From the NCBI RefSeq assembly GCF_025629245.1, contig NZ_JANZXN010000015.1, positions 354,615-418,614 of the forward strand: a stretch of DNA of 64,000 nt, written 5' to 3'. A program made the translations under genes and the position numbers. This DNA is from Natronobiforma cellulositropha. Its GTDB lineage: Archaea; Halobacteriota; Halobacteria; Halobacteriales; Natrialbaceae. Each line of letters starts with the position of its first letter. The first letter of the stretch is position 1. This document shows, one piece after another, positions 24,843 through 31,903 of this stretch. The notes under the pieces are model-generated. The model was not told where the DNA came from. It made no database searches and saw nothing but the letters and a program-made list of their open reading frames with translations.

Positions 24843-26195
24843 TCAGTCGACGAGCTGGATGAGGTTCCCGTTTCGCGTTACGTGGACGTCACGGCCCATC
24901 CGGTAGCCCTCGCTCTCACAGAGACCGACGTAGCCTGACAGTCCCTTGAGGTTCTGGTGGGCGGGGATGACGTGCTGTGGCTGGAGCGCGTCGAGCATCT
25001 CGTAGTGCCCCTCCTGGCAGAGGTGGCCGGAGACGTGAATGTCGGTGTAGATGCGCGCACCCTGCATACCGAGGAGTTTCTCGGCCTGGTAGCGCTGGCC
25101 CTCGTTGGTCGGCTCCGGGATGACGCGTGCGGAGAAGACGACCTTGTCGCCGTTGTCGAGTTCGTAGGGGGTCTCGCCGCGGGCCATGCGGGTGAGCATC
25201 GCCCGTGGCTCGCCCTGGTGGCCGGTGACGATCGGCAGGAAGTTCTCCTTCCCTTCGTTCATGATGCGCTTGAACGTGCGGTCGACCGACTTTCGGTGAC
25301 CGAACATCCCGAGGTCGCTCGGGAAGTCGACGAAGTTGAGTCGCTCTGCAGTGCCGGAGTACTTCTCCATCGAACGCCCGAGCAACACCGGCTGACGGCC
25401 GATATCTTTCGCGAACTCGACGAGGCTGGTCACACGCGAGATGTGTGAGGAGAACGTCGTCGCGACGATGCCGCCGTCGTAGTCCTCCATGCTGTAGAGG
25501 GTGTCTCTGAGGTGTTCGCGCGCGACGTTCTCGGAGGGCGTCCGGCCGGGCTTGTTCGCGTTGGTACAGTCTTCGATGTAACAGAGGACGCCGTTGCCCT
25601 CGCGGCCGATCTCACGGAAGCGCTCCATGTCGATCGGGTCCTCGATGACCGGCGTGTGGTCCATGCGCTTGTCCAGTCCGTAGACGATGGCCCCCTCCGG
25701 CGTGTGGAGGACGGGGTTGATCGCGTCGATGATCGAGTGGGTGACGTTGACGAACTCGAGTTCGACCTTCCCGGAGTCACCGATCGACATCGTCTCGCCC
25801 GCGCTCATCTTCACCAGATCGTTGTCGACGCCGAACTTCTGCTCGCCTTCGATCTGCTGTTTGACGAGTTCGATCGTAAACGGCGTCGCGACGATCGGTG
25901 CGTTGTAGCGGTGTGCGAGTTTGCTGATCGCGCCGATGTGGTCCAGGTGGCCGTGGGTGGGGACGATCGCCTGGACGTCGCCCTCTAAGTCGCTCATGAC
26001 CCGGTCGTCGGGAATCGCGCCCATGTCGATCAGGTCCAGACTGTGCATCCGTTCTGTCTCGACGTTGTCGTGGATCAGCACCTGCGAGAGGTTCAGACCC
26101 ATGTCGAAGATCACGACGTCGTCGCCCGCGCGGACGGCAGTCATCTGCCGGCCGACTTCCTCGTAGCCGCCTACCGTTGCAATTTCAATTTCCAT
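24843..26195 (-). CDS. rnj: ribonuclease J (archaeal aRNase J)
   Basis: 450 residues. A metallo-beta-lactamase/beta-CASP nuclease: metal site [13 protein letters not shown] (~residues 80-92) with a later His in [10 protein letters not shown], the beta-CASP region with FSSHISRV, and a C-terminal block [15 protein letters not shown] containing further metal ligands. Archaeal RNase J degrades RNA 5'-to-3'. The residue count and the absence of N-terminal KH domains separate it from the aCPSF1 family. Its start follows a ~240-bp gap after ipk that contains a self-complementary segment and a TATA box. Confidence 0.94.
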
Positions 26196-26271
26196 GGTTG
26201 TAGCACTGAAAGCCGCGTCGAAACGCTCGCTCTCATCGAAACGTACCGCGGACTCCTACTCGTTCGGCTCC

Positions 26272-26390
26272 TGTCGCTGCCGTCGGATCCCGCTATGCGC
26301 TCGAGGGCGATGCCCCAGGTTCGGTCTCGGGAACCCCGTGACCGACGAGCGCACTTGCCCGCGGGTTTCGCTAGGTCGACCTACACAGCG
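26272..26390 (-). ncRNA. strongly structured RNA segment in front of RNase J (leader or small RNA)
   Basis: Nested complementary segments form one long fold: 26275-26279 with 26386-26390, 26282-26285 with 26377-26380, 26289-26293 with 26361-26365, and the 8-bp TGCGCTCG/CGAGCGCA pair (26296-26303 with 26346-26353). The last encloses two hairpins: 26305-26315 (GGGC-GAT-GCCC) and 26321-26345 (TCGGTC, one mismatch, CGGG, a 3-nt loop, then the complement). A minus-strand TATA box lies at 26396-26403. On the minus strand ACA follows the lowest stem, and the pocket-like loop is 14 nt above it, as in H/ACA guide RNAs, but no k-turn is visible. It may simply be the 5' leader of rnj. Confidence 0.4.
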
Positions 26391-26395
26391 CTATC

Positions 26396-26403
26396 GTATA
26401 AAC
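26396..26403 (-). promoter_or_regulatory. TATA box between ipk and RNase J
   Basis: Minus-strand GTTTATAC. Initiation about 25 nt downstream (near 26375) would give a ~180-nt leader for rnj and would start inside the structured segment, just above its lowest stems. It indicates that rnj-idsA can be transcribed independently of mvk-ipk. Confidence 0.5.
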
Positions 26404-28175: not shown

Positions 28176-28326
28176 ACCGGGGCGTTGGACCGACGAGCGT
28201 TAATAGCTGTGTGGTTCGCTTCCACTCCCCCGGCGCAGTAATCGCTGCTCGAGACTCGAGGTGTGTACCCGGTGGTTCGCGAGTTGTATTCGAGGGTGTT
28301 ATCTCTGAGTGGTGGCGAGTGGCGGT

Positions 28327-29268
28327 ATGAAACGACGAACCTTCCTCTGTGGGCTCGCTGGCGCGGCGGCCGGGGGCGTAGCAGGCTGTCTCGCGAGTAC
28401 TGACGACGGCGAGAGCGACGCGACCGTTGGCTCGTGGTCCGGGGGGACGATCGAGTTCGCCCTCCCGCCGTTTCAGGACGCAGAAGACCTCCACGCACAG
28501 TACGCAGGCGTCTTCGAGTGGCTCGAGGACGGCTTCGACGGTGTCGACACCGTCGAGGGCGTCCCGACGACGGACTACAGCGGGGTGATCGAGAGCGTCG
28601 TCCACGGCCACACCGAGCTGGCGAACCTCGCACCGATGATCTACGCCCTCTCGGCCGACGACGGCATCCACCCGCTGGCGATCAACTGGTCACACGGCGC
28701 GGAATCGTACCACACCTACATCGCGACACGAGCCGACACCGGCATCGACTCGCTCGCGGATCTCGAAGGGACGCGGATCGCGATGGTCGACCCCCTGAGC
28801 GCGAGTGGCGGCATGTTTCCACGGTATACCATCTCTCAGGCCGGTCTCGACGCTGGCGACATCGAGACGGAGCCTGCCGACTTCGACATCGAGTGGGCGG
28901 GCGGCCACGACGCCGCCCTGGCCGCACTCGAGGAGGGCCACGTCGACGCGGCGGCCTACGGCGACTTCCAACACCCCGACACCGACGAGATTCAGAAGGT
29001 CGCACGGAGCGATCCGATTCCGTTCGACGCCGTCGTCGCCAAGCCCGACACGCCCGAGCCAGTCCGCGAAGCCCTGATCGAGCGGCTGGTCGAGACGCCG
29101 CCGGAGGCGCTCGAGGAACACCGTATCGACCGCTTCGGCGAGATCGAACCCGGGACCTACGACCCCGTCCGCGACATCGCCAGGGAGATGGGCGTCGAAG
29201 TCGCCGACCTCGAGGAGGACGAGACCGAAGACACGAACGGAAACGGAGATACCGACGGCGACGAGTAG
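28327..29268 (+). CDS. phnD: PhnD-type phosphate/phosphonate ABC transporter substrate-binding lipoprotein (copy 1)
   Basis: 313 residues from ATG 28327 (MKRRTFLCGLAGAAAGG; a GTG 18 nt earlier is possible). Tat-like KRRTFL and a lipobox ending VAGC at residue ~21. The mature part begins a PhnD fold (EFALPPFQDAEDLH), with VPTTDYSGVIESVVHGHTEL, IAMVDPLSASGGMFPRY (the ligand-loop region of the family) and AAAYGDFQHPD. A ~25-residue Asp/Glu/Asn-rich tail ends it. It captures an oxyanion-type or other ligand outside the membrane. Followed 17 bp later by the ATPase and then the permease. Confidence 0.9.
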   Translation: MKRRTFLCGLAGAAAGGVAGCLASTDDGESDATVGSWSGGTIEFALPPFQDAEDLHAQYAGVFEWLEDGFDGVDTVEGVPTTDYSGVIESVVHGHTELANLAPMIYALSADDGIHPLAINWSHGAESYHTYIATRADTGIDSLADLEGTRIAMVDPLSASGGMFPRYTISQAGLDAGDIETEPADFDIEWAGGHDAALAALEEGHVDAAAYGDFQHPDTDEIQKVARSDPIPFDAVVAKPDTPEPVREALIERLVETPPEALEEHRIDRFGEIEPGTYDPVRDIAREMGVEVADLEEDETEDTNGNGDTDGDE

Positions 29269-30991: not shown

Positions 30992-31903
30992 TCACTCCTC
31001 CGCGTCGAGGTCACTGACCGAGAGCCCGAACTCGTCGGCGATCTCCCGAACGATCTCGTAGTCCGCGGGATCGTATTCGCTGAAGCCGGTGACCATGTGC
31101 TCCTCGAGTGATTCCTCGGGCGTCTCGTACAGCCGTTCAGTGAGCGCAGCCCGGACCGATTCGGGTGTGTCGGGAGTCGCGACGGCCGCCGCCAGTGGGA
31201 TCGGCTCGCTCTCGGCGACTGTGACGATCTCGTCGCCGTCGGGGTGTTGGAAGTCGCCGTAGGCCGCCGCGTCGACGTGGCCCTCCTCGAGCGCCGCCAG
31301 TGCGGCGCCGTGGCCGCTCAGCGTCCACTCGATCTCGAGGTCCGTCGGCTCGCCGTCGACCCCGCCAGTGTCGAATCCCGCCTCCTCCAGCATGTACAGC
31401 GGGAAGAGCCCGCCGCTCGTGCTCAGGGGGTCGACCATCGCGATCCGCGTCCCCTCGAGATCCGCGAGCGAGTCGATGCCGGTGTCGGCTCGCGTCGCGA
31501 TGTAGGCGTGATACGAGGACTTACCGTGGAGTTCGTTCACCGCGAGTGGGTGGATGCCCTCGTCGGCGGCCATGACGTAGATCAGCGGCGAGAGGTTCGC
31601 CAGCTCGGTGTGGCCGTTGGCGACACTCTCGATCACACTACTGTAATCCGTCGTCGGCACGCCCGTCACCTCGACGCCCTCGAACCCGTCCTCGAGCCAC
31701 GCGAACAGTCCCGCGTACTCACGCTCGAGTTCCTCTGCGTCCTGAAACGGCGGGAGACCGAACTCGAGGTCGCCCCCCGACCACTCGGCGACGGTGACGT
31801 CTTCAGATCCCACCACTGCGTCGTCGCCAGTATCATCTGCGAGACAGCCCGCCCCTACCATCACTGCGCCGGCGACCGCAGCGACGTACGTCCGTCTGTT
31901 CAT
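30992..31903 (-). CDS. PhnD-type substrate-binding lipoprotein (copy 2)
   Basis: 303 residues, clearly paralogous to the PhnD at 28327. Shared blocks include LPPFQDAEELEREYAG, VPTTDYSSVIES, HTELANLSPLIYVMAADEGI, ADTGIDSLADLEGTRIAMVDPL and EEGHVDAAAYGDFQHPDGDE. Signal with NRRTYVAAVAG and a lipobox ending VGAGC. It is convergent with phnE (52-bp gap) and has no ATPase or permease of its own nearby, so it probably feeds the same PhnCE or is an orphan receptor. Ligand-loop residues differ slightly (SWSH versus NELHGKSS region), so specificity may differ. A TATA-like TACTAATA at 31925-31932 precedes it. Confidence 0.88.
   Translation of the reverse strand: MNRRTYVAAVAGAVMVGAGCLADDTGDDAVVGSEDVTVAEWSGGDLEFGLPPFQDAEELEREYAGLFAWLEDGFEGVEVTGVPTTDYSSVIESVANGHTELANLSPLIYVMAADEGIHPLAVNELHGKSSYHAYIATRADTGIDSLADLEGTRIAMVDPLSTSGGLFPLYMLEEAGFDTGGVDGEPTDLEIEWTLSGHGAALAALEEGHVDAAAYGDFQHPDGDEIVTVAESEPIPLAAAVATPDTPESVRAALTERLYETPEESLEEHMVTGFSEYDPADYEIVREIADEFGLSVSDLDAEE

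Follow-up and report, generated by a model that had tools for sequence, protein, structure and literature searches.

What is the foldable, apparently non-coding segment that the minus-strand genes ipk (27195-26437) and rnj (26195-24843) flank in the window, that is, in the whole 64,000-nt stretch of DNA that was analysed? The first-pass annotation had described it as a folded RNA at 26272-26403, in a region without an open frame and with a TATA box 5′ to it. The foldability, the apparent lack of coding capacity and a TATA-like box were confirmed, the box on the minus strand. The interval itself was wrongly bounded, because the predicted RNA starts at about 26371 and extends to the rnj start codon. 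The segment is the 5′ part of a structured leader of the rnj mRNA that would act in cis, and both the RNA and its architecture are well supported computationally. The host genome was placed in Natrialbaceae by its relatives, and the features listed below refer repeatedly to A2, an alignment of 56 Natrialbaceae leaders.

24843-26195, minus strand: rnj, archaeal RNase J, 450 aa, the linked gene (sequence and comparison)
26396-26402, minus strand: TATA-like box TTTATAC, rnj promoter (sequence)
26196-26371, minus strand: rnj 5′ leader, whole element, about 175 nt (conserved in Natrialbaceae relatives; covariance model R1)
26365-26370, minus strand: 5′ strand of P0b, CGAAAC, predicted RNA 5′ end, pairs with 26237-26242 (94.3% of cells paired in A2)
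26357-26364, minus strand: 5′ strand of P0a, CCGCGGGC, pairs with 26246-26253 (full-leader MFE; P0 covaries in families f12 and f17)
26295-26354, minus strand: P2 arm, with the stem 26354-26346/26303-26295 and inner hairpins 26345-26321 and 26316-26304 (4/9 stem pairs double-changed in A2)
26289-26293, minus strand: GCGGG, invariant, could pair with the 5′ CCCGC (26365-26361) as alternative helix P1 (56/56 in A2)
26265-26282, minus strand: P3-like hairpin CGGC...GCCG (fold and alignment A2)
26246-26253, minus strand: 3′ strand of P0a, GTCCGCGG (fold and alignment A2)
26237-26242, minus strand: 3′ strand of P0b, GTTTCG, overlaps the first UUUCRRUG copy at 26241-26234 (fold and alignment A2)
26207-26235, minus strand: P5 hairpin, 26235-26229/26213-26207 with inner 26226-26223/26218-26215 (3/8 pairs double-changed in A2)
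26204-26211, minus strand: second UUUCRRUG copy, TTTCAGTG, 8 nt ahead of the start codon of rnj (sequence; type 1 leaders from other families have it too)

In 115 leaders, 36–39 nt separate the CCCGCGGG strand from the first T of such a box. From this spacing we infer a start site at about 26371 (26370-26374), at the edge of the first helix. Part of the lowest stems drawn by the first-pass annotation precedes this site, in line with its own suspicion that the TATA box would start transcription above them. Its model comprised nested stems and two internal hairpins: the upper stem (26354-26346/26303-26295) and both hairpins were recovered, and the outer stems gave way to P0, whose 3′ partner in the full-leader fold (26253-26237) falls outside 26272-26403. 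In general, P0 joins the very start of the transcript to a stretch close to rnj and encloses the P2 arm and the P3/P4 arm. P5 follows and carries the two copies of UUUCRRUG just ahead of the start codon. The inner hairpins of P2 vary among relatives, and the conserved UGYAAGAC loop that relatives have in the P3/P4 arm is absent from the P3-like hairpin in this genome and in several others. In the predicted fold the rnj start codon is partly open (mean unpaired probability 0.56), so plain occlusion of the start is not an obvious route of control.

Folding energy was compared with that of shuffled sequences. Over 26272-26403 we obtained z = -1.64 for the plus strand and -1.45 for the minus strand, with 10/200 and 12/200 shuffles as good, respectively. 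Such modest values (about -1.5) make energy alone insufficient for the claim of a structured RNA. The full leader (26377-26193) reached z = -2.39, with 2/200 shuffles as good; the leader of a typical relative gave -2.90 and that of a relative from another family -0.09. The signal beyond chance is conservation and covariation, not folding energy.

The first-pass annotation had proposed to look for covariation in alignments of the gap between ipk and rnj, and the outcome was positive in A2, in family f12 and in the Halorussus-like part of family f17. Long invariant runs mark the alignment of the 56 Natrialbaceae leaders; 96.4% of cells are paired, 8 pairs are double-changed, and the covariation score was 0.106 as against 0.071 for shuffled alignments, with 0/500 as good, bearing in mind that all shuffle and swap controls reported here ignore relatedness. 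For f12 (14 leaders) the score was 0.296 versus 0.173 in shuffles (0/500). The Halorussus-like part of f17 (16 leaders) had 95.1% of cells paired, again with 0/500, and one of its P0 pairs is C-G in 8 leaders and G-C in the other 8. In both of these families the covariation of the helices clearly exceeds that of the shuffled and the slid controls.

P0 deserves separate attention, since P0a shows no covariation in Natrialbaceae, where 6 of its 7 pairs never vary, so that the covariation of P0a rests on other families. When P0 partners were swapped within f12 or f17, 0/1000 swaps were as good by mean duplex, and 0/200 draws were as good when f1 was given partners from other families; swaps inside f5 and f7 gave no signal. 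The pair probability of P0 in the 56 leaders is 0.91. Taken together, covariation supports P0, P2, P3/P4 and P5, and it supports P0 in independent families. The same architecture with a different sequence was seen in f5, f7, f12, f14 and f17, in upstream stretches from selected genomes. Families f4, f6 and f10, as well as one Natrialbaceae genome, carry an unrelated leader (type 2), in which a CCGAG at the 5′ end is able to pair with a CUCGG immediately ahead of the start codon.

The alignment also indicates which strand is the RNA. A2 contains 276 G-U cells and 12 A-C cells, and this excess of G-U in Natrialbaceae identifies the RNA as the rnj-sense strand; a plus-strand RNA was ruled against by the same asymmetry. 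We also considered a conserved upstream reading frame. Closed frames of at least 8 codons with an ATG or GTG start occur in 51/56 leaders, and no conserved one was seen among them: the variable arms are of unequal length, and several leaders lack the ATG before GGCC.

How tightly is the element bound to its gene? RNase J is present in 156/156 sampled genomes of the order Halobacteriales. The covariance model R1, which was built on the Natrialbaceae alignment and fails to detect distant members inside the order as well, found at most one match per genome at E ≤ 0.01, in 59/156 genomes of the order and almost always at rnj. One weak match (G114, E = 0.0026) lies off the rnj of its genome. In the genome studied here, the single match is at the leader (E = 5.6e-27, with the window sequence among those from which the model was built). 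Among 120 genomes drawn from the phylum, E ≤ 0.001 was reached in just three, all Natrialbaceae, and this Natrialbaceae-built model gave no matches outside Halobacteriales in the sampled genomes. A search with the P3 loop pattern GACGNNCTGYAAGACGCCG pointed the same way: it yielded 48 sites in 47/156 genomes, 45 of which adjoin rnj, and the reversed pattern yielded zero sites in the 156 genomes. The three sites away from rnj (L220-L222) were checked by eye as possible further genomic copies and lack the rest of the element. Three close rnj paralogs that we inspected have leaders without it.

The first-pass annotation had also pointed to an H/ACA guide RNA. The element is highly structured and, like archaeal guides of this class, contains a stem that includes an internal hairpin; an ACA close to the stem base, in the P3 region, is peculiar to this genome. 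That ACA is not conserved in the 56 Natrialbaceae leaders. No k-turn was recognised by eye in the fold or the alignment, where the upper arm forms a junction that carries two variable hairpins, and Rfam searches of the window and nine relatives at gathering and permissive thresholds gave nothing above chance at the leader. Additionally, the element is tied to one gene, with no more than one copy per genome, and forms part of an mRNA leader: its structure reaches to about 10 nt from the start codon, and there is no room for a terminator. We therefore abandoned the guide RNA assignment, and consider it hardly credible that a stand-alone small RNA, of this or another kind, lies upstream of rnj by chance.

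The other proposal of the first-pass annotation, a leader of RNase J whose 5′ end is protected, fared better. It agrees with the tight linkage to rnj, the near-fixed TATA spacing and the covarying helix on the first transcribed bases. As in autoregulatory leaders of ribonucleases, the 5′ UTR is, by prediction and covariation, long and structured, and the leader is conserved and gene-specific. Such a leader probably lets the cell, or RNase J itself, control the amount of RNase J. We give even chances to the reading that we prefer, namely an autogenous cis-regulatory leader that controls RNase J by gating the 5′ end of its own mRNA. When RNase J is scarce, the sequestered 5′ end would shield the rnj mRNA; when it is abundant, the enzyme would engage the leader and open or cleave it, and the mRNA would be destroyed. 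This would amount to negative feedback on an enzyme that is essential, in organisms said to have no exosome.

We infer the feedback part from the 5′-to-3′ exonuclease and the reported endonuclease activity of the enzyme, from its essentiality in an archaeon described as exosome-free and from the precedent of bacterial ribonucleases. In Haloferax, which is reported to have no exosome, aRNase J is essential, and its homodimer is an endonuclease (PMC10470531). Bacterial RNase E, PNPase and RNase III autoregulate (PMC3997798). Against a feedback clamp stands the UGYAAGAC loop, which a plain 5′-end clamp does not need and which this genome has lost. With lower probability, the leader may represent a new archaeal RNA class in which the mRNA of the main 5′-to-3′ ribonuclease senses, through its own 5′ end, the activity of that enzyme, the end being paired in P0 and released or attacked according to the amount of free enzyme; the enzyme might then dock at the UGYAAGAC loop or at the UUUCRRUG pair.

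Could the conserved loops instead respond to something other than RNase J? A riboswitch or signal sensor, whose loop in the P0-closed junction would bind a small molecule or another factor and thereby switch rnj, would fit the near-invariant stretches GGGYAAGUG, AUAGCGGGA and the UGYAAGAC loop. The 5′ CCCGC is moreover complementary to both the middle GCGGG and the 3′ strand, which makes two states conceivable. The alternative pairing with GCGGG, P1, was nevertheless rejected as the main lower stem: it never varies in Natrialbaceae, shows no covariation in f17 (alignment A5; 64% paired, zero double changes) and weak covariation in f12 (A3), and is less stable than the P0 fold in 56/56 leaders, by about 5.7 kcal/mol on average. 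Its pair probability is 0.03, compared with 0.91 for P0. A switch between P0 and P1 is thus possible but not supported, and no second supported structure emerged. Since several genera, among them that of the genome studied here, have lost the loop, and the element serves a single gene, which is unusual for a metabolite sensor, we regard such a sensor as quite unlikely.

Another protein might bind the leader, be it a ribosomal protein, an Lsm protein or a factor that recognises the paired UUUCRRUG copies, and set the translation of rnj, with RNase J giving no feedback. Type 1 leaders from several families do share the two UUUCRRUG copies, one of them shortly before the start codon, and leaders of ribosomal protein genes are known in Halobacteria (S15, PMC7247131). 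As rnj is neither a ribosomal protein gene nor part of such an operon, and an unsystematic look recognised no rRNA mimic, we find this unlikely. A stable 5′ helix could also merely stabilise the mRNA, with no feedback involved. The leader would then be passive, its helix only protecting an essential mRNA from 5′-to-3′ decay, in keeping with the paired 5′ terminus of type 1 leaders and with the same theme (CCGAG/CUCGG) in type 2 leaders of f4, f6 and f10. A simple hairpin would suffice for that purpose, and such a role would not account for the conserved loops, for P5 or for the repeated motif, which makes a purely passive role very unlikely in our view.

Among known systems, the leaders of E. 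coli pnp and rnc rely on hairpin cleavage of the RNase III type. Like the proposed rnj leader, they belong to ribonucleases that control their own mRNA via structured leaders (PMC3997798); unlike it, they are not described as having long-range closure of the 5′ end in the passages of that paper used here. The same paper presents the E. coli rne (RNase E) leader, likewise a long structured leader of a central ribonuclease gene, in which a UTR hairpin is required for feedback (PMC3997798). The enzyme family, domain of life, sequence and fold all differ, the terminal bases of the rnj leader join the closing helix, and feedback is presumed for rnj. Within Halobacteria, the S15 leader candidate is also a predicted conserved leader RNA (PMC7247131); it belongs to rpsO and its likely ligand is a ribosomal protein. 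A study of start sites in Haloferax judged structured leaders to be untypical of haloarchaea (PMC4983044), and our search of the open-access literature found no description of an rnj leader.

Control over the amount of RNA-decay machinery in archaea is largely uncharted, and Haloferax reportedly lacks the exosome and depends on its essential RNase J (PMC10470531). A conserved, gene-specific RNase J leader across much of the order offers a testable case of post-transcriptional control, with the exact helices defined. The leader would in addition constitute an RNA family that Rfam release 15 lacks.

Several minor observations were made along the way. The loci with type 2 leaders are L142-L145, L152-L160, L120-L122 and L169, and their leader ends also pair. 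In Halorussus-like genomes (L137, L199, L200, L192), the distal leader contains arrays of similar, GCGTGGCTTTGCCACG-like hairpin units, which lengthen it to about 300 nt. The paralogous rnj copies (L079, L080, L088) have a common, different upstream motif, CAACCGAAAGACGCGCTGTC. Elsewhere in the window, 28309-29268 (plus strand) and 30992-31903 (minus strand) encode two similar predicted proteins that resemble substrate-binding proteins by eye and flank, on opposite strands, an ABC transporter-like region.
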